From Rikenellaceae bacterium (lineage in GTDB: Bacteria > Bacteroidota > Bacteroidia > Bacteroidales > Rikenellaceae), in contig CABJAJ010000005.1 of assembly GCA_902363575.1 (NCBI GenBank), positions 124,001 through 188,000 of the forward strand: a stretch of 64,000 nt of DNA, given 5' to 3'. Below are positions 50,198-61,425 of the stretch, one piece after another. Position 1 is the first letter of the stretch; each line of letters starts with the position of its first letter. The position numbers were made by a program, and so were the translations under genes. The notes below the pieces were generated by a model. The model had not been told where the DNA came from and searched no databases. It was given only the letters and a program-made list of their open reading frames with translations.

Positions 50198-50510
50198 GAG
50201 CGGGGAAACCCCCGATCCGGGCCGCGGAGACGGTCGCCCCCGCGGTGAGGGCCGACCCAAAAAGCGCTCCGCATAACCCGGCGAATCGCACCGGCCGCCG
50301 GCTCGGGATGGCGCAGAGTCTTTTGGCCCATGCTCTTTCTGCTCGCCTGCCTTTTCAGCTCCATCCGAAAGAGAAAGGCGCAGCCGTTCTTGGGCAAGCA
50401 CAAGCAGGAAGCGCTCTGCCCGCAGTTTCCGAGGGGGGGGGTGGCCGGCTTGTTCCGACGATCGCATGAAAAAAGGCCGTAATTGCTGTCTCCAGTCAAT
50501 TATCGGCCTT
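50198..50510. other. Gap between the AraC-type gene and the tRNA
   Basis: Contains the tRNA terminator at its right end (50469-50511) and a nine-G run at about 50433-50441. The remaining 270 bp show no gene, promoter or repeat that I can support. Confidence 0.5.
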
Positions 50511-50511
50511 T
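50469..50511 (-). terminator. Terminator of the initiator tRNA gene
   Basis: On the minus strand, AAAGGCCGATAATTG and CAATTACGGCCTTT pair with one bulge around an 11-nt loop, followed by a T run (50474-50469). It starts at the tRNA 3' end. Confidence 0.85.
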
Positions 50512-50586
50512 GGTAGCGGGAGGAGGACTCGAACCTCCGACCTTTGGGTTATGAGCCCAACGAGCTGCCAACTGCTCCATCCCGCG
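50511..50586 (-). tRNA. Initiator tRNA-fMet (CAU)
   Basis: 76 nt including an encoded CCA. The anticodon loop reads CTCATAA. Two initiator hallmarks are present: three G-C pairs next to the anticodon loop (GGG/CCC) and an unpaired position 1-72. Position 1 is C as in E. coli, but 72 is U rather than A. D-arm GCAGTTGGCAGC and T-arm GGAGG-TTCGAGT-CCTCC fold normally. Confidence 0.95.
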
Positions 50587-50743
50587 ATATATCGGTATAT
50601 CGAATGATATTTCGCTTTTGCGTGTGCAAAGATAATGCAAGGAATCGGAAAATGCAAATTTTTTCCGCGAATCTTTTGCCTCGCGCTCCGAACAGGCCGC
50701 AACAGACCGGAACAGACCGCTTTCCGCCGTTTTTCCGACGCCC

Positions 50744-51217
50744 CTATTTCCGGTAACGGGCGCAGGTCAACGTCTTGCGGAACCGGTCGAAGCGTTCGGC
50801 GCCCGCAAATCCCGCCGGCGAGAAAGCGAACTTTCCGTGCGGGGTGGCGATCCGCAGCGCTTCGTCGTCGTTCTGCTCGAAGGTCAGCGTCCGCACCTCC
50901 AACTCGATGCGCTCGGTACGGTTTCCGCGCCGGACGGGGAACGAGAGGATTTCGTCTTCCAAACGGATTTCGCCGTCGATCAGCGGACTCCGGATCGTCC
51001 GGACGATCACCAGGGCGCAGGCCAGCACCACGGTCAAGAGCAGGAAAAGCAGCCAGTAAATCCGATATTCCGGGGGAATGGCTCCTATCAGGCTGCCGCC
51101 CCTGTCCGCCACGGAAAAGAGCGCGAGCAGGCCGCCGCACATGGATACGCCGGCCAATGCGACCGACAGGAGCGTCCACCGGACGCTCGTTCCGCGATAA
51201 GTGAATTGTTCATTCAT
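50744..51217 (-). CDS. Small inner-membrane protein at the end of the Hdr operon
   Basis: 157 residues. Two transmembrane helices (WTLLSVALAGVSMCGGLLAL and YWLLFLLLTVVLACALVIV) are followed by a cytoplasmic beta-rich domain of about 80 residues (EIRLEDEILSFPVRRGNR, ATPHGKFAFSPAGF), similar in layout to bacterial PH-domain membrane proteins. It begins 12 bp after the large Hdr-type subunit and is in the same direction, so it is probably the last gene of that operon. No known function. Confidence 0.7.
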   Translation of the reverse strand: MNEQFTYRGTSVRWTLLSVALAGVSMCGGLLALFSVADRGGSLIGAIPPEYRIYWLLFLLLTVVLACALVIVRTIRSPLIDGEIRLEDEILSFPVRRGNRTERIELEVRTLTFEQNDDEALRIATPHGKFAFSPAGFAGAERFDRFRKTLTCARYRK

Positions 51218-51229
51218 TGCAGGCCGGGT

Positions 51230-53038
51230 TCAGGAGTTGTCCGAAAAAGTGTGCCCGGCACGGATATGCGCCGCCACGACCTCCGAGAGATCGGCCACCG
51301 GAAGGGAGGCGCCCCGTCCCAGCGCTTTCTTGCAGAGCGGGCAGGCCGTCACGATCGCCGTGGCGCCCGTGGCTTCGAGGCAGCTCGTGACCGAGCGGGC
51401 CAGTTCGAGCTGCTGGGCGTCGGAGATGGCTGTGTTGGCCACCGACGAGCCGCAGCAGAGGGCATGCTCGCGCGTCTGCTCCGGCTCGAGCAATTCGCCG
51501 AGGGCGGCCACGACCGCACGGGGTTCGTCGTAGATGCCGCTCCCGCGCCCCAGCTCGCAGGGGTCGTGGTAGGTGTAGCGTTCGCCGCTGCCCTCGACGG
51601 CAAGCCGTCCTTCGCGTAGCAGACGCAGGATATACTGCGAATGGTGCAGCACCTCGATCCCCTCGAGACGGTACTCTTCCCGAAAGACCTTGAGGCAGAT
51701 CGGACACGACGTTACGAGGGTCGTGATTCCGTGGCGGCGGAAGAGCGCCGTGTTGTAATCCGCCATCTTGCGGGCCGAGTCGGTTTCGCCCGACAGCTTG
51801 AGGGGGCGTCCGCAGCAGACCCCGCCGTCGCGGTCGGCCCACCAGACCTGTTCGCCGGCGGCGGCGAAAATCCGTTCCATCGCCCGCAGGGTACGGGGCG
51901 TAAGCAGGGTCATGCACCCGGCGAAGTAGCCCACCCTGCCCGTACCGGACGAGCGGTCGAGGCCGCGGAAGTAGTCGAAGCGCCGCTCGTCGGGGGTGTT
52001 GCGCATCCGGTCGCGGGAGTTGAGCCGCAGCGTGTTGAGCTCGATACCCACGGGGCACCGCTGTTCGCAGCGGCCGCACATCAGGCAGTTGTTGGCGACC
52101 GCCTGCCGCAGCATACCGTGCCGCCGGTCGCGCAGGAAATAGACCGACTGCACGTCGTCGATCCCCAGCTCGCTCTGCAACTGGCAGGGGTCGATGCAGA
52201 TGCCGCAGCGCGAGCAGGCCTCGATCTGGAAATGGTCGTAAGCCCCCTCCTTTTCGGACGAGCGGATGCCGTACCGCCGCAGGAAGATCAGGGGAATCTC
52301 GGTGAAGATATGCATGTAGCGCGAGAACGGCAGGGCGACGAAGAAAATCCCGAGGGCAAGCGAGTAACCCCACCAGGCCGGCTGGAACAGAGCCCGCAGC
52401 ACCTGCGCGTCCGCGTGGCCGGCAAGCAGGCTGCCGATCGTGCCGGTGAGAAAGCCCCCGCCCCCGTAGAGCGCGCACGTCAGGCTCTCGGCCGCCAGCC
52501 GCAGCGGGAAGATGAACCAGAGGGCCGAGAGGGCAATGCGGTCGCCCATCACGTGGCGCGTGGTGCGGCGCATCCCCATCGCCCGCGACCAGACCCGCTT
52601 GCCCCAGGCGAGGGCGACGCCGCTCAGCACCAGCAGCAGGAGCAGGTCCATGATGAAGTCGAACACGGGCTTGTGTTCCATCCCGATCGAGAAGTAGCGG
52701 AAAAAGACGTGACCCTGCAAGGGCACGTAGCGCAGTCCGAGGTAGGCGGCCGTCTCGACCCATCCGGCGACGATCAGCAGGAACCACCCGAATGCGAGGC
52801 TCATGTGCATATACCCCAGCAGCGGATTGACGCGGAAGATGCGGCGGTGGAGCAGCGACTCGCCGATGACCTCGCCGACGGCTTCGAGCGTGCGGCGCGT
52901 GGGCAGCCCCCGGACAAAACGGAGCTTGTCGGCGCGGGGCAGGCCGTAGAACCACCAGGCGTATTTGGCGGCCAGCGCCAGCAGCATCACCGCCGCGCCG
53001 ACCATGAAAGGCACACAGAAGGGAGCGAAGAAAGTCAT
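51230..53038 (-). CDS. Membrane-bound HdrD/DsrM-like iron-sulfur oxidoreductase subunit
   Basis: 602 residues. The N-terminal 260 residues form about five membrane helices with His residues placed as in heme-b-binding NarI/DsrM domains (YMHMSLAFGWFLLIV, SRYMHIFTEIPLIF). Two [4Fe-4S] motifs follow (CSRCGICIDPC and CLMCGRCEQRC, about 265-330). Two Cys-rich CCG domains come last (YFAGCM, VCCGRPL, SCPICLK; YHDPCELGR, ALCCGSS, ACPLCKK). This fused layout is that of a quinone-linked heterodisulfide-reductase-type subunit. It is the likely membrane exit for electrons of the upstream Hdr-like subunits. Start 1 bp before the previous stop codon. Confidence 0.88.
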   Translation of the reverse strand: MTFFAPFCVPFMVGAAVMLLALAAKYAWWFYGLPRADKLRFVRGLPTRRTLEAVGEVIGESLLHRRIFRVNPLLGYMHMSLAFGWFLLIVAGWVETAAYLGLRYVPLQGHVFFRYFSIGMEHKPVFDFIMDLLLLLVLSGVALAWGKRVWSRAMGMRRTTRHVMGDRIALSALWFIFPLRLAAESLTCALYGGGGFLTGTIGSLLAGHADAQVLRALFQPAWWGYSLALGIFFVALPFSRYMHIFTEIPLIFLRRYGIRSSEKEGAYDHFQIEACSRCGICIDPCQLQSELGIDDVQSVYFLRDRRHGMLRQAVANNCLMCGRCEQRCPVGIELNTLRLNSRDRMRNTPDERRFDYFRGLDRSSGTGRVGYFAGCMTLLTPRTLRAMERIFAAAGEQVWWADRDGGVCCGRPLKLSGETDSARKMADYNTALFRRHGITTLVTSCPICLKVFREEYRLEGIEVLHHSQYILRLLREGRLAVEGSGERYTYHDPCELGRGSGIYDEPRAVVAALGELLEPEQTREHALCCGSSVANTAISDAQQLELARSVTSCLEATGATAIVTACPLCKKALGRGASLPVADLSEVVAAHIRAGHTFSDNS

Positions 53039-53039
53039 C

Positions 53040-53375
53040 TCAGAAATCCCCCAGTTTACGTTTTATGAGCATCACCACGCCCCGCGTATTGATCCCGCGC
53101 GGGCAGACCAGCCGGCACTTGCCGCAAAGCATGCACTTGTTCATCTCTTCGTAGGCCCCCTCGTACTCCCCCCGGCGCACGAGCGTATGCACGCGCCGGA
53201 AGTTGAACGAGGTGAGGTTGCCCGCCGTGCAGACGGCCGTGCAGCCTCCGCATCCGATGCAGCTCTGCAACTCGGGCATCTCGCGCAGGATTTCGTCGCT
53301 CTTGCGCAGGTTATTGCTGTCGATGTCGATCGCCCGCGGCTTGCTGATCGAGTAGCCCCAGTTGATCGCGCTCAT
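53040..53375 (-). CDS. HdrC-like 4Fe-4S ferredoxin subunit
   Basis: 111 residues with two cluster motifs, CIGCGGCTAVCTAG (about 41) and CMLCGKCRLVCPRG (about 84). They are spaced as in HdrC/GlpC-type proteins, with a short helical linker. The ATG at 53375 overlaps the preceding stop as ATGA, which indicates translational coupling; the GTG at 53384 is a less likely start. It shuttles electrons between the flavoprotein and the membrane subunit (inferred). Confidence 0.88.
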   Translation of the reverse strand: MSAINWGYSISKPRAIDIDSNNLRKSDEILREMPELQSCIGCGGCTAVCTAGNLTSFNFRRVHTLVRRGEYEGAYEEMNKCMLCGKCRLVCPRGINTRGVVMLIKRKLGDF

Positions 53376-54385
53376 CGTTCGCACGTATTAAGGTAGTCGC
53401 GCACGGCAAGGGCTGCCGCAGCCCCGTCGCAGAGGCTCTCGCCGAGGTTCTTGGGCGCGGTGACGGCTCCGGCGTAGAAGATTCCCTCCACTCCGCTCCC
53501 GGCGCTTCCCAGGAAACGGTCGCGCGGCTCCATGAAGCCGCTCGGGGCCTGCCGCAGCCCCGTCCGGGCCGCCAGACGGCCGTTGTCGTCGTTGGCCCGC
53601 ATCCCCACCAGCAGCACCAGCATATCGACGCTCATCTTGAGCGGACGCCCCGTGAGCGTATCCTCGGCCTTGATCTGGATGCGCCCCTCGATGGTGGGGC
53701 TGGCCTCCGAAATGCGGCCCCGCACGAAATGGATGTTGTAGTCCTGCTGGGCGCGGCGGTACATCTCCTCGTAACCGGGCCCGAACATGCGGATATCCAT
53801 GTAGAAATTGAAGACGTCGGCCTCGGGAAAAAGCTCTTTCATCTCCATCGCCTGCTTGACGCCCGTGACGCAGCACACCTTCGAGCAGTGGGACTGGCAG
53901 ACCTTCTCGTCGCGCGAACCCACGCAGTGCAGGAAGGCGATGCGGCGCGGACGGTTGCCGTTCTGGAGCGCCACGCGCCCCTGGTTGAGCATCCGTTCCA
54001 GATCCACGGAGGTGAAAACGTTGTCGTAAATTCCGTAGCCGTACTCCTCCTTGATGCGGGCGTCGAAGAGCGTGAAGCCGGAGCAGACGACCACCCCGTC
54101 GCAGGCGAGCCGCCGCCCGTCCGAAAGGGTCACCTGCCGGGGTTCGACCTCCGAGGCCTCGGCACCCGTCAGACATTCGATACCGGCGTCGGCCACGCGG
54201 CGGCGCAGCTCGCCGAGCACCTCGTGCGCGGGGGTGAACGAGGGGAAGAGCCGGTGCCAGCCGCGCAGTTTGCCCCCCAGTTCCGACTCCTTCTCGACGA
54301 TCAGGGGAATTGCTCCTTCGGCTTTCAGGCTGAGGGCCGTCTGCATGCCCGCCGGGCCGCCCCCTATGACGATGATTCGCTTCAT
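53372..54385 (-). CDS. HdrA/QmoA-like FAD-dependent subunit
   Basis: 337 residues. The N-terminal Rossmann motif VIGGGPAGMQTALSL binds FAD. A Cys cluster in HCVGSRDEKVCQSHCSKVCC (about 175-195) is the HdrA/QmoA-type [4Fe-4S] site. YAGAVTAPKNLGESL near the C-terminus is the second FAD motif. It lacks the extra ferredoxin domains of full HdrA (about 650 residues) and is closer to QmoA length. It shares its first base with the stop codon of the HdrB-like gene (TAATG). Confidence 0.88.
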   Translation of the reverse strand: MKRIIVIGGGPAGMQTALSLKAEGAIPLIVEKESELGGKLRGWHRLFPSFTPAHEVLGELRRRVADAGIECLTGAEASEVEPRQVTLSDGRRLACDGVVVCSGFTLFDARIKEEYGYGIYDNVFTSVDLERMLNQGRVALQNGNRPRRIAFLHCVGSRDEKVCQSHCSKVCCVTGVKQAMEMKELFPEADVFNFYMDIRMFGPGYEEMYRRAQQDYNIHFVRGRISEASPTIEGRIQIKAEDTLTGRPLKMSVDMLVLLVGMRANDDNGRLAARTGLRQAPSGFMEPRDRFLGSAGSGVEGIFYAGAVTAPKNLGESLCDGAAAALAVRDYLNTCER

Positions 54386-55473
54386 TATTGCAGTTTGATG
54401 TTGTAAACGGTGTCCTGAGCGCAACTGTTGACCACCGCCGCCTCGGGCTTGCCGATGTATTTGCCGTTGCGTCCCAGGTATTTGGCCGCGGGGTCGTAAC
54501 TTACGCCCATCTTTTCGAGCAGCGGTTCCACGTCCACCTGGTGCATCTGCAACCCCAGTTCCCAGGGGTCGTAACCCAGCACCAGTCCGGCCATCTCCTC
54601 GTAGGTGAGCACCGGAATGCCGCGCCCGTTCTCTCCGTAGGTGACCCCCTCCATTTCGGCGATGGTGTACTGCCACTTGTCGAGGAACATCGCGCAGCCG
54701 GGGCAGTTGGCCACGATGAAGTCGGGCTTGTAGGGGGCCATGCTCTCGAGTTTTTTGTGCGAGTTGGCGATCGGAAAGCCCCGGTTGGCCTGCACGAGGT
54801 AGTTGCGGAAGCCGAAGCCGCAGCAGTGGCGCCGTTCGGGATAATCGACCACCTCGCCGCCCCACGACTCGACCATTCCGGCCAGCACATAGGGGAACTC
54901 CGAGCCGCCGATTCCCTGCCGTGGGAAGATCTTGGCGTAGTGGCAGCCGATATGTTCCACCGCGCGGAGCGGCTCGCCCGTCTCGGCATTGACGAGGCGG
55001 TATTTCGCTTTCGCGGCAATCTGCTCGCGGAAATGGAAGACGATATCCGACGTGTGGGCCAGCGAGCGGGGCTTGCGCAGCTCCCGGCCGGTCGCTTTGT
55101 AGAGGTTTTCGCGGGCCCGCTCCTCGGTCTCGGGAAACTCCTCCCACGTATTGAGGATTTCGGTGTAGATGCCGAAGGAGGTGATGCAGGAGCTGATGAA
55201 ATTTTCGTATCCCGCCTCCCCCATCAGGGCGAACTGCCGGGCCACGACCGCCATGATGGTATCCAGCGGCACGATGTCCGAGTGGTAGCCGATGCCCGTG
55301 CAGGAGCTGTGGAGCGGATCGTCCAGCACGTCCCGCCCCAGGTCGCTGCGCAGCATCTCCAAGAAGAGCTTCTCGCTTCCCGGAAAGAAATTCTGGCGGA
55401 TGCAGCTTCGTGCGTAATAGTAGTGGTCGTCGGCGATATCTTTCTGATATTCGGCCCAGCTCGCTCGTTTCAT
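54385..55473 (-). CDS. HdrB-like CCG-domain subunit
   Basis: 362 residues from the ATG at 55473; a GTG at 55497 is an unlikely alternative. HdrB carries the site of disulfide reduction in methanogens. The C-terminal CCG domain is complete (GCHYAKIFPRQ, then RHCCGFGFRN, then ANCPGCAMF). The N-terminal one is partial (SSCTGIGYHSD). The natural substrate in this organism is unknown, since coenzyme M and B are not expected. It ends with TAATG overlap into the flavoprotein gene. Confidence 0.85.
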   Translation of the reverse strand: MKRASWAEYQKDIADDHYYYARSCIRQNFFPGSEKLFLEMLRSDLGRDVLDDPLHSSCTGIGYHSDIVPLDTIMAVVARQFALMGEAGYENFISSCITSFGIYTEILNTWEEFPETEERARENLYKATGRELRKPRSLAHTSDIVFHFREQIAAKAKYRLVNAETGEPLRAVEHIGCHYAKIFPRQGIGGSEFPYVLAGMVESWGGEVVDYPERRHCCGFGFRNYLVQANRGFPIANSHKKLESMAPYKPDFIVANCPGCAMFLDKWQYTIAEMEGVTYGENGRGIPVLTYEEMAGLVLGYDPWELGLQMHQVDVEPLLEKMGVSYDPAAKYLGRNGKYIGKPEAAVVNSCAQDTVYNIKLQ

Positions 55474-55509
55474 AAGGGGTGTCGTTATCCTCCGCACGGC
55501 GGAGGGAAA

Positions 55510-56208
55510 TCAACTGTGTTCGTTGGAGTTGCGGGTAAAAGTATCCATCATGTAGCCCGCATCGGCCCCGTCGGGGTAGCCCATCTCGCGGGCCTTGCGG
55601 TCGGAGTGCTCCTCGATGCGGTCGAACATCTCCTGCCCGCCGCTCACCTCGAAGATGCGTCGCAGCTCGGCGAGCGACTCCTCGTCCATGCGGCGCAGGG
55701 CACCCGCCCCCTGCTGCATATATACGGGGGTGAAGCGGCCGTACACCTCGCGGTCGTTCTCGAAAATCCAGCGCCACACGCTGCCCTGCTCGGGATGGAG
55801 GTCGGGTTTGACCAGACGGGGCACGATGCAGTAGCCCGTGCGCAGGATGTTCTCCCCGATGATGCGCTTGAGGGCGAGCTGCTGCCGCCCCTTCTCGCTC
55901 TCGACGAAAAATCCGAGCTGCTGCGAAAGGGTCCTGAGCGCCTGGATGACATATCCGGGCGTGTTGCCGCGCGGACAGCGGGGACGGCACGACATGCACT
56001 CGCCGCAATACCAGATGGTCTCGCTGCGCAGCAGCTCCTCGATCGCCTCGTCGTCGCGCGACTGGACGATATTGACGATCTCGCGCGGATCGTAACAGTA
56101 GAACTCCGCCGCCGGACAGACGCCCGTACAGACCCCGCAGTTCATGCAGGCGTGCAGCCCTTCGCGCATCCGCACGTCTTCGAGCAGCATATCGTAATAT
56201 TTACCCAT
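55510..56208 (-). CDS. HdrC-like iron-sulfur subunit, first gene of the Hdr operon
   Basis: 232 residues from the ATG at 56208; longer frames run into the promoter. Two motifs are present: CMNCGVCTGVCP (about 21) and a second Cys group CGECMSCRPRCPRG (about 70), the HdrC signature. A long helical tail follows (about 100-232), longer than in typical HdrC. Transcription probably starts at TAACTTTG on the minus strand (56240-56233), 24 nt upstream. It is the first of five tightly packed redox genes plus a small membrane protein. Confidence 0.85.
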   Translation of the reverse strand: MGKYYDMLLEDVRMREGLHACMNCGVCTGVCPAAEFYCYDPREIVNIVQSRDDEAIEELLRSETIWYCGECMSCRPRCPRGNTPGYVIQALRTLSQQLGFFVESEKGRQQLALKRIIGENILRTGYCIVPRLVKPDLHPEQGSVWRWIFENDREVYGRFTPVYMQQGAGALRRMDEESLAELRRIFEVSGGQEMFDRIEEHSDRKAREMGYPDGADAGYMMDTFTRNSNEHS

Positions 56209-56232
56209 AGAAAACTTTGCTCTCCCGGACAG

Positions 56233-56240
56233 CAAAGTTA
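56233..56240 (-). promoter_or_regulatory. -7 element of the Hdr-like operon
   Basis: Minus strand TAACTTTG, a match to TAnnTTTG, 24 nt before the ATG. No TTTG at the proper -33 distance. Confidence 0.55.
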
Positions 56241-56275
56241 TGCCAAACAGGCCGAAATGCGAGTGGTATAAATAC

Positions 56276-56758
56276 CTATTTCTTCCGCTCCCAGGTCTGG
56301 AACGCGTAGGGCCACGGGAAATCGGGCCCGCCCGCACGGGCTTCCGAGGCCGTCAGCCGCCACGCCGCCTCGTCCCACTCCGGGAAGTATGCGTCGCCCG
56401 GGTAGGGGCGGCGGATGCGGGTGAGCAACATCCGGTCGGCCAGCGGCAGGGCCTGACGGAAGAGCTGCGCGCCGCCGATGACGAAAAGCTCCTCGTCGGG
56501 CGGAAAGAGGGCGACGGCCGCCTCGAGCGAGCGGACGGCTTCGGCCCCCTCGGGCCGAAGCTCCTGCCGGCTCACCACCACGTTGCGACGCCCCGGCAGG
56601 GGGCCGCCGAGCGACTCCCAGGTCTTGCGCCCCATCACCACCCCGTGCCCGAGGGTGAGGGCCCTGAACCGCTGCAAATCCTCCTTCAGATACCACGGCA
56701 TCCGGTTTCCCGCGCCGATCACGCCGTTTTCCGCCACGGCTGCAACAAGAGTTATCAT
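56276..56758 (-). CDS. folA: Dihydrofolate reductase
   Basis: Reduces dihydrofolate to tetrahydrofolate with NADPH. 160 residues from the ATG at 56758. Motifs: MITLVAAVAENGVIGAGNRM-type start, MPWYLKEDLQRF with the substrate-binding acidic residue, VMGRKTWESLG, RRNVVVSR and LFVIGGAQLF. The frame extends upstream to 56797, but a TATCTTTG element (56774-56767) lies there, so the shorter start is right. It is divergent from the ThyX-like gene. Confidence 0.95.
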   Translation of the reverse strand: MITLVAAVAENGVIGAGNRMPWYLKEDLQRFRALTLGHGVVMGRKTWESLGGPLPGRRNVVVSRQELRPEGAEAVRSLEAAVALFPPDEELFVIGGAQLFRQALPLADRMLLTRIRRPYPGDAYFPEWDEAAWRLTASEARAGGPDFPWPYAFQTWERKK

Positions 56759-56766
56759 AGGTCGGT

Positions 56767-56774
56767 CAAAGATA
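56767..56774 (-). promoter_or_regulatory. -7 element of folA
   Basis: Minus strand TATCTTTG, an exact TAnnTTTG match, ending 8 nt before the ATG. The -33 element is not evident. Confidence 0.55.
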
Positions 56775-56858
56775 CGAATTTCCGGCCAATGTCGCACGAA
56801 AGAGCGTGCATCCCCGCAGATAGGGCCGCCGATATGCCGGGCGATTCCATATTTTTAT

Positions 56859-56888: not shown

Positions 56889-58502
56889 ATGAGCAACCTC
56901 TCTTTTATCCGGGAACCGTTCACCGAGCGCGAACGTGCGATCCTGAGCAACTATTTCACCAACACGGACAAACCCGTCTTCGGGCTCATCAACCTGCCCG
57001 ACGTGGTCAAGGGCGCCCTGTTCGCGCGTTACAGCCGCTCCGACAAGAGCCTGCGGCGGCTCTTCCTGGACGAATTCTGGATCGACACGCCGGACTCCGC
57101 AGGCACCTGCACTGCGGGCGGGCTGAACACGGAGCGCGCCGGCAGGCTCTACGACAAGATGATCCTCGACTTCGGCGACGACTCGGTCGCCCAGCTCGGC
57201 GGGGCTCACCTGGCCTGCGAGCAGGTCTCCAACCTGCTGGCCAAGTTCATCGAGAAGGGGCGCATCGCCTCCTACCTCGAGCAGAGTACCCGCTACGTCT
57301 ATTACAACCGGAAGCGGGAGGGCCGTTACGGCTACCTCACGCCCCCCGAGATCGAGTCCTCCTCCTGCTGCGCCCTCTACCGCGAGTTCATGGACGCGCT
57401 TTTCGACACCTACACCGACCTGCAGCAGCGGCTCATTCCGGTCTTCCGCGAGCGCTATCCCCGCACCGAGGGGATGACCGACGGAGCTTGGGAAAATACG
57501 ATCAAGGCCAAAGCGTGCGACACGATCCGCGGCCTGCTGCCGGCCTCCACCCGCACCAACCTGGGCATCTTTGCCAACGGGCAGTATTATGAATACCTGC
57601 TCATCAAGATGTTCGCCAGCCGCAACCGGGAGGTGCTCGCCTATGCCGATATGATGCTCACGGAGCTGCGCAAGATGATCCCCTCGTTCCTCACGCGCGT
57701 CGATCTGGAAAACCGGGGCCGCGCGTGGAGCCGCTACCTCTCGGACATCCGCGACGACATGGAGCGTTTCGTCCCGCAGCCCGGAGCCGTCCTGCCCGCC
57801 TCGCCGCAGCCGAACACCGTCGAACTCGTCGGCTGGGATCCCGACGCCGTGCGGCGGATCGTGCGGGCCATCCTTTACGAATACTCCGACCGGTCGAAAA
57901 CCCAACTCGACCAGACCGTCTCCCGGCTCACGGAGCCGGAGCTCGGACAAATCGTCCGCGCCTACTGCGGCGAGCGCCTCAACCGGCGCCACAAGCCCGG
58001 CCGGGCCTTTGAAGCCGCCAGCTATGAGTTCGACCTGCTCTCGGATTACGGCGCATTCCGCGACATCCAGCGCCACCGCATGCTCACGATCGACTGGCAG
58101 CGGCTCACCACCGACAACGGGTATTTCAAACCCGCGATCCTCGAAGAGCTGCCCGCCGAAGGGGCCCTTTACGACGGGATTCTCCGCCGGGCGCAGCAGG
58201 TATTCGAGACGCTGCGCCGGGAACTGGGCCCCGACACGGCCCAGTACGCCGTGCCCTTCGCCTTCCGGCTGCGCTATGCGATCACGATGAACCTGCGCGA
58301 AGCTTTCCACCTGATCGAACTGCGCACGCAGCGGCAGGGCCACGACTCCTACCGACGCATCTGCCTGAGGATGCACGAGCTGATGCGCGATCGGGCCGGA
58401 CACGGCCTGCTGACGGATGGGATGCGATTCGTTGATGACAACTTCTACGACCTTGCCCGCGCAGAAGCCGAAAAACGCAAATCCGCAAAAAAAGGGCAAT
58501 AA
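56889..58502 (+). CDS. thyX: Double-length ThyX-like flavin-dependent thymidylate synthase
   Basis: 537 residues, twice the usual 210-260 of ThyX. ThyX makes dTMP from dUMP using FAD and methylene-tetrahydrofolate. The protein looks like two ThyX units with complementary decay of the signature RHRxxSxNExSxRY. In the first unit the RHR part is lost, but SYLEQSTRY (128-136) is kept. In the second RHR is kept (395-397), but the following S..NE..RY is lost (LTIDWQRL). NLREAFHLIELR near 470 is the usual C-terminal nucleotide-binding motif. A working active site could form between the two halves. Whether it still makes dTMP is not certain; folA next door fits. Its stop overlaps the next start (TAATG). 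Confidence 0.78.
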   Translation: MSNLSFIREPFTERERAILSNYFTNTDKPVFGLINLPDVVKGALFARYSRSDKSLRRLFLDEFWIDTPDSAGTCTAGGLNTERAGRLYDKMILDFGDDSVAQLGGAHLACEQVSNLLAKFIEKGRIASYLEQSTRYVYYNRKREGRYGYLTPPEIESSSCCALYREFMDALFDTYTDLQQRLIPVFRERYPRTEGMTDGAWENTIKAKACDTIRGLLPASTRTNLGIFANGQYYEYLLIKMFASRNREVLAYADMMLTELRKMIPSFLTRVDLENRGRAWSRYLSDIRDDMERFVPQPGAVLPASPQPNTVELVGWDPDAVRRIVRAILYEYSDRSKTQLDQTVSRLTEPELGQIVRAYCGERLNRRHKPGRAFEAASYEFDLLSDYGAFRDIQRHRMLTIDWQRLTTDNGYFKPAILEELPAEGALYDGILRRAQQVFETLRRELGPDTAQYAVPFAFRLRYAITMNLREAFHLIELRTQRQGHDSYRRICLRMHELMRDRAGHGLLTDGMRFVDDNFYDLARAEAEKRKSAKKGQ

Positions 58503-60709
58503 TGGAACTTAACGACATCAATCCGCAACGGTCGCTCGACTGGCTGAAAAATGCGGTCGAAGCGCTCGCCGAGCACCATGTGAAAGAGGAGAAGCAGAAA
58601 AAGAAGAATAAGTACCTGACCTTTATCCGCTCCTCGGAATCCTGCTCTCCGAAGGAAGCCGGGGAAGAGCCTCGGAACAACGTAAACGGAGGGGAGCAGG
58701 AAAAGGCCTCGGTTCACTTCTTCCCGACGGCTACATTCCATGCCTACGCGGCTTTGGCCGACGCTTTCGGCTTCCTGGAGGAGCTGGGGGAGGCGGACTT
58801 CCTGAAAAAGATCGGGGGAATGCTCAGCCTTACCCCCGACAAATCGCAGTATGCCGCCGCTCTGCGAGACCGGCTGTTCGATCTGCTCAGGGAATGCGAC
58901 GCCACCGGTTTGACCAAAAGCTCGGCCAATAGCAGGCAGCGTTCGATTATCCTGTGGGAAGCGCTGCTGAACGCGGTGGAACGGTGCCCGGAGAAAAAGG
59001 AGAGAAACGGGGAGGGAATCGAGCTCCCGGACAAAGACCCGATCGAGAAACTCGTCCAGGACCTGATCGGAAACCCGGATTCAAGGAATCCGACAATCAT
59101 CTATCCCGATCCCCCCGGCTCGCCGTGGTTTATCCTCACCGCCCTGAACTGCAAAAGATCGCTGGAAAAGATCGTAATGACCGCCGTCGGGAAGAACTTT
59201 CCCGGTGAAAAGGAACTCAGAGACAAAACCGACCGCCATATCGACTACCAGATGGCCCGCTCCGGCCTGGGAGGACACTCGTTCGACCCCGTTTCGCTCG
59301 CCATCGCCGTCTGCTGCAAATTGCGTCTGGACAAAGAGTTCCGCCATAACCCGCTCTTCGTGGAGTGTCTGCGCAAAATCTTCGCCTGCCAACAGCCCGA
59401 CGGCTGCTGGCCCACGGGAGCGGCGATCTCCCTCCACGATTCGGGCGACGTAATCCAGCAACCGAGCATCGCACTGGTCACCGAGCTGATCGAGGCGATT
59501 GTCGATTACGACCTGCTGGTCGCGCACAGCGAACAGTCGCAGCGGATTCTGGAGCTGGTCACGCCCCTTTTCCAGCGGCTCGCACGCTTCCTCGAAACCA
59601 CCTATAGCACGGCCCAACGAAGCGACGCATCCCCCGATGATCCGGTCACGATTCACGGCTGGTGCAGCGACCGTTTGCGCCTGCCCTACTTTACCGAAAC
59701 CTGGATCACGGCCTACGTCTGCCGGTTCCTGCTCAGGTACCATCTGCTCGAAAAAGCCTGCCTCCGCTCCCAGGCCCTCAGGCAACTGGGCGTGCCGGGC
59801 TTCACGCCCAGGCGTGCGACCGCCCGCCCGAAAGGAACCACGAGTGACGGAGATGGACATTCGGACTGGGAGAAAATTCTGGAGCCGGACAACATACTGA
59901 CCCCCAAGAGCGAGATCGAAGCCCTCACAGCCGGGCTCATTGCCAAGTGCGACAACGGCAATTCGCTCCGGCTATGCGAAAAAGACCACGTGTCCTTTAT
60001 CGTTTGCGGGCCTCCGGGGAGCGGAAAAACCCACCTTGTCACCCAACTGGCCGCCCGCCTGGACTGGCCGCTGGTCGAGCTGTCGCCGAGCCATTTCATC
60101 CGCAACGGCATGGAGTTCATCGAAAGCACCAGCAAGGAGGTTTTCGACGCCCTGATGCAGTTGTTCCATGCGGTGGTCTTCTTCGACGAATGCGACGAGC
60201 TCTTTTGCGACCGCACGTTGGCGGGCAACAACCGCAACATCCTGAGTTTTCTCACCCCCTGCATGTTACCCAAGCTGCAGAAGCTCCACGACTGCCGGCA
60301 GGTGATCTTCGTCGTGGGCACCAACTTCCTGCACCGGATGGACAAGGCCATCATCCGCTCCGGACGTTTCGATAAAAAGCTGCTTTACGACCTCCCCGAC
60401 GAAGCCTGCCGGGAGCAGATTTGCGACCAGACGGGTCAAACGGATCGATTGAACGACTTTCTCGTACAGACCCGGGGACTGCCCTATAAGGAGGTCGCAA
60501 AATACCAAGTCACCAAACAATGCGCTCCCGTCCTGCCGGCCGATTACAGCTCGTGGATCGAAAATATCGCCCAGAATGAAATCAAAGAGTGTAGTTACAA
60601 CGAGTACACAAAAAATGCGAAGCAAGCATATTGGGACGACCTGACGCGCAACAACCCGGAGCAAACGGAGAAGCCGACTCCCGTTCCTGCGGCCGGTCAA
60701 AAGCCATAG
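58502..60709 (+). CDS. AAA+ ATPase with helical, toroid-like N-terminal domain
   Basis: 735 residues. The C-terminal part (about 465-690) is an AAA+ domain: Walker A GPPGSGKT (503-510), Walker B FFDECDEL with D562/E563, sensor-1 N608 in VVGTN and SGRFDKKL with the finger-type Arg. The N-terminal 450 residues have no family I can name with confidence. They are helical with repeated aromatic and Gly turns and include CQQPDGCWPTG (296-306), which resembles the QW motif of terpene-cyclase/prenyltransferase alpha/alpha-toroids. A charged, Lys/Glu-rich linker lies at 25-70. It is translationally coupled to the ThyX-like gene and followed 5 bp later by a HIT gene. Confidence 0.75.
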   Translation: MELNDINPQRSLDWLKNAVEALAEHHVKEEKQKKKNKYLTFIRSSESCSPKEAGEEPRNNVNGGEQEKASVHFFPTATFHAYAALADAFGFLEELGEADFLKKIGGMLSLTPDKSQYAAALRDRLFDLLRECDATGLTKSSANSRQRSIILWEALLNAVERCPEKKERNGEGIELPDKDPIEKLVQDLIGNPDSRNPTIIYPDPPGSPWFILTALNCKRSLEKIVMTAVGKNFPGEKELRDKTDRHIDYQMARSGLGGHSFDPVSLAIAVCCKLRLDKEFRHNPLFVECLRKIFACQQPDGCWPTGAAISLHDSGDVIQQPSIALVTELIEAIVDYDLLVAHSEQSQRILELVTPLFQRLARFLETTYSTAQRSDASPDDPVTIHGWCSDRLRLPYFTETWITAYVCRFLLRYHLLEKACLRSQALRQLGVPGFTPRRATARPKGTTSDGDGHSDWEKILEPDNILTPKSEIEALTAGLIAKCDNGNSLRLCEKDHVSFIVCGPPGSGKTHLVTQLAARLDWPLVELSPSHFIRNGMEFIESTSKEVFDALMQLFHAVVFFDECDELFCDRTLAGNNRNILSFLTPCMLPKLQKLHDCRQVIFVVGTNFLHRMDKAIIRSGRFDKKLLYDLPDEACREQICDQTGQTDRLNDFLVQTRGLPYKEVAKYQVTKQCAPVLPADYSSWIENIAQNEIKECSYNEYTKNAKQAYWDDLTRNNPEQTEKPTPVPAAGQKP

Positions 60710-60714
60710 CGACC

Positions 60715-61425
60715 GTGCGCCATCCGCCCCATACCGCGCACCCCGAGTGCGGCGGCCACGGCCCCTCACAGCCGGAGGCGTATGCCGCGCCCTGCGACTT
60801 CTGCGACGAGTTTGCGGGACGCCCTACCCGGTTCACGCAACTGTACGGGGAGCGGAGCCGTCTGCTTTACGCCGACGAGACGTTCGTAGTCTTTCCCACC
60901 CTCGGACAGATCGGCCTGCTCTACCTGCTGATCGCCCCCCGCCGCCATATCGGGTGCATGACGCAGCTGCTCCCGGATGAAATCGTGCGGCTCGAAAACC
61001 TGCTCGGCAGGTTGTGCGAGCGGCTGGCTCCTTTCGGGCAGGTCGTCGGGTTCGAGCACGGGGCCACAGGCCCGGTCGGAGGAAGCAACAGCGTCTCGCA
61101 CGCCCATTTCCATCTGCTCGCCGTGCCCGCCGCGATCGACATGCGCCGGTTCTTCGATCCGGATGACCCCGTATGCAGCGCCCCGACCCTCGGCGTCTGC
61201 TACCGACGGCTCGCGGATGCGCAACAATACCTGCTGAGCTGCGACCCTGCGGGCGGTATCCGTTATCTCGACACAACGGCGCTTGCGGGAAAATATCCGT
61301 CCCAGTTTTTCCGCCGCGCTTTGGCCGCATACCTGGGGACAGCCGGGACGTGGGACTGGCGGGCGTGCGGCGTCGAACCGGAGCTGCTCGACACGCTCCG
61401 CCGATTCTCCGGCGGCATCCTGTAA
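60715..61425 (+). CDS. HIT-family protein with N-terminal CxxC
   Basis: 236 residues from a GTG at 60715; no ATG is available in this part of the frame after the previous gene. The histidine triad reads SVSHAHFHLLAVP, matching HxHxHxx, so nucleotide hydrolase or transferase activity is expected. CDFCDEF near residue 25 is a zinc-type CxxC seen in several HIT proteins. FVVFPTLGQIGLLYLLIAPR matches the core strands of the fold. The C-terminal 80 residues extend beyond the usual HIT domain. The gap to the ATPase gene is only 5 bp, so the three genes form one operon. Substrate unknown. Confidence 0.8.
   Translation: MRHPPHTAHPECGGHGPSQPEAYAAPCDFCDEFAGRPTRFTQLYGERSRLLYADETFVVFPTLGQIGLLYLLIAPRRHIGCMTQLLPDEIVRLENLLGRLCERLAPFGQVVGFEHGATGPVGGSNSVSHAHFHLLAVPAAIDMRRFFDPDDPVCSAPTLGVCYRRLADAQQYLLSCDPAGGIRYLDTTALAGKYPSQFFRRALAAYLGTAGTWDWRACGVEPELLDTLRRFSGGIL

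Follow-up and report, generated by a model that had tools for sequence, protein, structure and literature searches.

The open reading frames of the 64-kb window (the whole stretch of Rikenellaceae DNA analysed here) include three genes that lie head to tail, all on the + strand, and encode in this order a double-length ThyX, an ATPase and a HIT protein. The features of this trio and of its 5' neighbour, in window coordinates, are as follows:

56276..56797, - strand: dihydrofolate reductase gene (DHFR/folA; PF00186, 182.4 bits), divergent and just 5' of ThyX
56889..58502, + strand: double-length ThyX, FAD-dependent thymidylate synthase, 537 aa, with two PF02511 stretches (133.5 bits)
57258..57296, + strand: ThyX N-half motif GRIASYLEQSTRY, with the serine and the RY part kept and RHR not kept (alignment of four double ThyX)
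58071..58079, + strand: ThyX C-half RHR, invariant in all four double ThyX; the serine after RHR is not kept
58502..60709, + strand: toroid-AAA+ ATPase, 735 aa (PF00004, 65.2 bits; alignment of 14 rows; AlphaFold2 model)
58502..59791, + strand: N-terminal (alpha/alpha)6 toroid in the predicted structure, about residues 1-430
59987..60601, + strand: classic-clade AAA+ module with GPPGSGKT, FFDECDELF, GTNF and GRFD (PF00004 at residues 500-628)
60715..61425, + strand: predicted CWF19-type HIT protein, 236 aa, with a GTG start 5 bp past the ATPase stop
61099..61113, + strand: HIT catalytic motif HAHFH; H131 and H133 are invariant and H129 nearly so in the HIT alignment

An earlier note on this DNA had read the three genes as one coupled operon, and both the TAATG, in which the ThyX stop and the ATPase start overlap by one base, and the 5-bp gap before the HIT gene are confirmed. 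It had also called the combination undescribed; indeed, no description of ThyX, toroid-AAA and HIT together was found in the titles and abstracts of the open-licence literature searched. The G+C contents of the ATPase (58.3%), ThyX (63.8%) and HIT (66.9%) genes, compared with 63.6% for the window, are weak hints. On the 3' side of the trio, the opposite strand carries a phosphoesterase gene, the best NCBIfam match of which is of the LpxH type and below cut-off (77 vs 134 bits). A run of genes on the - strand (51230-56337), two of which were scanned, has iron-sulfur and pyridine-nucleotide oxidoreductase domains, and presumably resembles a cluster of the heterodisulfide-reductase type.

The structure model supports the toroid that the earlier note had placed at the N-terminus of the ATPase, and its fold is terpene-cyclase-like, the same as that of squalene-hopene and class II terpene cyclases. 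A Q-x-x-DG-x-W stretch like that of terpene cyclases occurs in 13 of the 14 rows of the toroid-AAA alignment, with Q-x-x-SG-x-W in the remaining row. However, D-x-D-D, the acid motif of class II terpene cyclases, is found in the toroid part of only one of the 14 rows, at an unconserved place, and the toroid is here fused to AAA+; it is probably a binding domain, not a cyclising one. In the AAA+ module, GPPGSGKT, FDECDE and GRFD are present in all 14 rows. PADLOC models matched the window ATPase only in this module, the best being IetA (45.2 bits; 70.1 bits for a rhizobial relative), and the match to the NCBIfam model IteA, again confined to the module, scores 43.2 bits, far below the cut-off of 510. 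The ATPase has a classic AAA+ module in common with the IetA/IetS anti-phage system, but differs in its toroid N-terminus and in its partner, HIT or DUF4406. The partner of IetA is a protease; no protease adjoins the window ATPase, the adjacent genes being ThyX and HIT. One relative (L047:7172-9292, genome G283) has ordinary-looking metabolic genes on either side, and is probably unable to hydrolyse ATP, because its P-loop reads GPPDGAKAAL.

The third gene had been taken for a HIT nucleotide enzyme, and the HxHxH motif that defines the HIT superfamily is present in its product as HAHFH; 29 of the 34 rows of a wider HIT alignment have it. The window protein scores just under the Pfam cut-offs (HIT, 18.2 vs 21.5; DcpS_C, 23.9 vs 24), and its orthologue in P. 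distasonis exceeds both. The model supports assignment to the CWF19 type by fold, so that in this protein the Cwf19-type proteins of the spliceosome appear to have a relative in bacteria. The matched spliceosome chain 8ro2_L1 is named CWF19-like protein 1, and we take the remaining matched chains to be Cwf19-type. Compared with the CWF19/CwfJ C-terminal proteins of the intron-lariat spliceosome, the window protein is bacterial, with 12% identity, an AAA+ neighbour and no spliceosome. It has a weak match to the PADLOC 'HIT family' model ThsC2/ThsC (17.3 bits, E 7.5e-4), and the HIT proteins of Mycobacterium and P. distasonis had no PADLOC match at E 0.01. A search of 246 genomes of the G001 phylum with a HIT profile of 221 positions gave matches in 83, of which only that of G001 reached position 220 and those of two genomes position 188; the others ended at position 156 or less and so represent the generic HIT domain.

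Members of this HIT subfamily were also found without toroid-AAA, in five plasmid loci (L037, L038, L043, L044 and L046), and from their neighbours the subfamily itself seems to keep nucleotide company. By annotation or Pfam, HIT has a cysteine-desulfurase-type gene directly beside it in L043 and at a distance of one gene in L038 and L046; in L037 such a gene adjoins HIT by eye only, and L044 has no annotated gene of this type. The plasmids with this pairing belong to Streptomyces and Lactococcus, and by eye only to Rhizobium; they perhaps represent a separate nucleotide-sulfur pathway. In L046 a dCTP-deaminase-like gene immediately precedes HIT. In the Caulobacter plasmid locus (L044:5941-11857), HIT forms a run with genes for a small membrane-looking protein, for a protein of 815 aa in which a PRA-PH domain scores just above cut-off, and for a GNAT protein that matches PIN_3 below threshold and PADLOC PDC-M11A weakly.

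The window ThyX clearly exceeds the Thy1 domain cut-off (PF02511, 133.5 vs 24.8 bits), and falls below that of the equivalog model TIGR02170 (46.5 vs 87.9 bits), as does the P. distasonis ThyX (70.8 bits), to which it is 59% (58.6%) identical. Both are double forms with split motifs. Identity to the stand-alone double ThyX of Euzebya and Miltoncostaea is 45% and 41%, respectively, and the four aligned proteins share GR(I/L)(A/G)(S/A)YLE(Q/K)STRY in the N-half and RHR in the C-half. The window protein thus has the two Thy1 stretches and split motifs of the two stand-alone forms, and differs from the ThyX family in its sub-cut-off TIGR02170 score and its junction to AAA-HIT. Set against the site motif of single ThyX, the two half motifs look complementary. 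According to PMC5954106, three subunits meet at the active site of single ThyX, so that the two halves plausibly build one composite site. That the split motifs are the sign of a modification enzyme found no support and was abandoned, because the stand-alone double ThyX proteins have them too.

Euzebya and Miltoncostaea have a double ThyX without the AAA-HIT pair, and a phage carries a distant copy (26%), again without the pair; the window ThyX therefore seems to be an ordinary thymidylate synthase that can be separated from its neighbours. The Euzebya gene is near dcd and the phage gene lies beside dCMP deaminase and dUTPase, company that fits ordinary dTMP synthesis. At 2 kb from the Euzebya ThyX there is an annotated AAA gene, which is unrelated, and the cut AAA gene in the vicinity of the Miltoncostaea ThyX did not match the window ATPase.

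A survey in PMC5954106 has, in its row 'Bacteroides (55)', no ThyX and 53 ThyA among 55 genomes; we take this row of the survey to mean the whole phylum. In the control genome Bacteroides ihuae, ThyA is listed and ThyX is not. By tblastn (E 1e-4) with the open frames of the G001 and G002 ThyA loci as queries, ThyA was not found in the 64-kb window or in the 20-kb P. distasonis stretch L007; as a positive control, the L078 ThyA frame matched the L079 frame (55.6%). Frames from both ThyA loci matched the DHFR genes of the window and L007, which implies that thyA has a DHFR gene no more than about 4 kb away in G001 and G002. It is plausible that this operon took thyA's place beside folA, the absence of ThyA being known for the 64-kb window and the 20-kb L007 alone.

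All parts were compared by a uniform tblastn (E 1e-4) in 19 stretches, comprising seven toroid-AAA, three ThyX and five HIT loci and four extensions of L001 and L002. Eight toroid-AAA loci were read in context (the window, L001, L002, L003, L007, L008, L047 and L048); L004-L006, in which the match is limited to the AAA module, were excluded, and the membership of L003 is weaker, because its match does not extend beyond the AAA module and the toroid end. HIT is next door in three of the eight, namely the window and L007 in Bacteroidales and L001 in Mycobacterium. A DUF4406 gene takes the HIT position in the two rhizobial loci, L008 and L048; we take DUF4406 to have a nucleoside-deoxyribosyltransferase-like fold. 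In these five loci the toroid-AAA gene and its partner overlap or nearly touch. At E 1e-4, no HIT, ThyX or DUF4406 was found in the remaining 3/8 (Myxococcales, Phycisphaerales and G283). ThyX stands beside toroid-AAA only in the window and P. distasonis. The Sinorhizobium partner (L048:5511-7481) combines DUF4406 (22.0 bits, at cut-off) with a long C-terminal part that has no Pfam match. Both rhizobial copies of toroid-AAA are on plasmids typed as conjugative.

In P. distasonis (NZ_OY725790) the gene order is ThyX, toroid-AAA, HIT, PRA-PH (71.7 bits) and DHFR; 3 bp separate ThyX from toroid-AAA, 1 bp toroid-AAA from HIT and 19 bp HIT from PRA-PH. The P. distasonis ATPase and HIT proteins are 39.9% and 36.7% identical to those of the window. 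The 277-kb record (NZ_OY725790.1) is named "plasmid 45", but L007 contains housekeeping-type genes (queA-type, galactose-1-epimerase and DHFR) and the record may be a chromosome fragment. In Mycobacterium sp. 852002-50816 toroid-AAA and HIT overlap in ATGA, with no double ThyX alongside; a single-length ThyX and a ThyA are located elsewhere in the genome. It is very improbable that the trio consists of three unrelated genes that are neighbours by chance, against which stand this Mycobacterium overlap and the same order in P. distasonis.

From the counts of HIT (3/8), DUF4406 (2/8) and ThyX (2/8), what recurs, as read from gene content, is toroid-AAA together with a small enzyme that probably acts on nucleotides, ThyX being a partner specific to one lineage. 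The earlier note had asked whether the trio is conserved around the ATPase: it recurs in two of the eight loci, but in Bacteroidales only, and the wider unit is AAA-HIT or AAA-DUF4406. ThyX is indeed apart from the ATPase in nearly all relatives; the AAA-HIT pair is not, being together in three of the eight. The trio as one widespread system was accordingly dropped.

Two of the eight loci lie near genes of the Dnd type. A complete dndABCDE cluster lies 1.4 kb away from the Mycobacterium AAA-HIT pair: HIT (50503-51261) is followed on the opposite strand by DUF4760 (51401-52009), then by dndA (52675-53892) and, on the + strand after dndA, by dndB, dndC, dndD, dndE and a Dnd-associated methyltransferase gene, to 60473. 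DndA (480.8 bits) is barely over the NCBIfam cut-off of 480, and dndB (519), dndC (661), dndD (585), dndE (114) and dnd_rel_methyl (649 bits) are all over theirs. In Myxococcales, toroid-AAA has dnd_rel_methyl (577 bits) on its 3' side and, 5' on the opposite strand, a DndB-like DGQHR gene (124 bits vs 58.85; PF14072, 125 bits) that fails the DndB equivalog (91.8 vs 328); DndD-like (195 vs 246 bits) and DrmC-like (83 vs 133 bits) genes nearby are below cut-off. The PF14072 match near toroid-AAA is the single one per genome in Mycobacterium and Myxococcales, and the G283 and G003 genomes have none. In neither case are the dnd genes in one transcription unit with toroid-AAA, and this proximity may be general island clustering. 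The defence role suggested by the earlier note gains indirect support from these neighbours, but an unsystematic look at the two Bacteroidales loci noticed no defence or dnd gene. In the main text of PMC10853773 the whole word HIT is absent, and the one 'toroid' refers to Ssp-type ATPase rings.

Toroid matches were found in two of 396 genomes of the G001 phylum, one of 78 of the G001 genus and one of 235 of the G002 phylum; apart from one of the two genomes among the 396, all of these are the genomes around which the samples were centred. The phyla of G003, G879 and G880 gave 0/246, 0/398 and 0/378, weak results for samples that have no known positive, the 4-row profile having missed G003, whose AAA module is a relative. 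This profile was used for the samples of 396, 235, 246 and 78, and a 7-row profile for those of 398 and 378; the phylum samples cover five phyla, Bacteroidota not among them. The toroid-AAA module is rare in the genomes sampled. A protein search with ATPase residues 1-480 gave 11 relatives among 7999 candidates scored. In a plasmid search, 27 records matched, and among the 20 listed four matched beyond the AAA module: P. distasonis, S. meliloti and two of R. beringeri, which have identical genes and were counted once. As to viral carriage of the module, nothing usable emerged: a phage collection gave no match at E 1e-10, two single-protein viral scans gave no relative, and a viral alignment scan gave at least 24 loci with matches only within residues 453-701, on the AAA side.

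Our tentative reading, to which we give a probability of about 45%, is that AAA-HIT is a module that serves in conflict or stress, toroid-AAA controlling a partner that acts on nucleotides. It is favoured by the tight packing of AAA and partner, the Dnd neighbours, the patchy distribution, the conjugative plasmids, the weak ThsC match and the failure to find ThyA. It is weakened by the three of eight loci without HIT or DUF4406, by the decayed P-loop and ordinary-looking neighbours in G283, by the limited PADLOC matches, and by the Myxococcales DndB-like gene that fails its model and the separate transcription units of the Dnd genes. The travelling unit would be two genes, for an AAA+ remodelling ATPase, presumably hexameric, and a small nucleotide-acting enzyme encoded by the next gene. 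The terpene-cyclase-like toroid would sense or grip a protein target, and ATP hydrolysis would remodel the target or free the partner. The partner, a CWF19-type HIT protein or, in rhizobia, DUF4406, would then cleave or transfer a nucleotide. The formation of a complex, the substrate, a defence role and any direct link to ThyX are all parts that we infer. In Bacteroidales the double ThyX sits beside folA, which is the place of ThyA in the two genomes compared; it most likely still makes dTMP, and may supply or protect the pool that the partner uses.

Next in rank comes hitch-hiking, in which AAA-HIT is a module of its own and an ordinary ThyX landed upstream of it in a Bacteroidales ancestor, co-transcription having no functional meaning. 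In other phyla ThyX is found apart from the pair, and PMC5954106 describes thyX and thyA as genes often transferred laterally; however, order and tight spacing have been kept in two loci with AAA proteins only 40% identical, and we regard this as somewhat unlikely. Less probable still is a metabolic activase, in which toroid-AAA would pry an inhibitory nucleotide or a dead-end flavin adduct off ThyX and HIT would destroy the released inhibitor, with PRA-PH and DHFR completing a thymidylate operon. The layout would be like that of CbbX, the Rubisco activase, and CbbY, the phosphatase that clears the released inhibitor: an enzyme gene, an AAA+ activase gene and a small hydrolase gene. The client is, however, another one, and the likeness considered here is that of the AAA+ module. 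The order ThyX-AAA-HIT in both Bacteroidales loci, with PRA-PH and DHFR beside the P. distasonis trio and DHFR beside that of the window, speaks for this activase and for the nucleotide metabolism suggested in the earlier note, but Mycobacterium has the pair with no adjacent double ThyX, its single-length ThyX and ThyA being elsewhere, and the double ThyX of Euzebya, Miltoncostaea and, distantly, the phage has no pair. We rank the conflict module first, then hitch-hiking, the activase and chance; the rest of the probability falls to something not thought of.

On the preferred reading AAA-HIT is mobile and probably conflict-related, and in Bacteroidales it is joined to thyX beside folA; the evidence gives a hint of a nucleotide-based module that has not been described and whose function is uncertain. 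A more specific and quite doubtful form would be an immune module, in which toroid-AAA detects an invader and switches on the HIT or DUF4406 enzyme, which would act against a nucleotide or against a nucleic-acid end that is branched or modified; in Bacteroidales it would be wired into thymidylate synthesis, host dTMP being shielded or monitored. Its HIT enzyme would then be a bacterial relative of a spliceosomal lariat-handling protein.

ThyX, absent from all 55 genomes in the 'Bacteroides' row of the survey in PMC5954106, is here joined to AAA-HIT, and in two other phyla toroid-AAA neighbours DNA-modification genes. If the link is functional, the supply of dTMP would be tied to an ATP-driven nucleotide machine.
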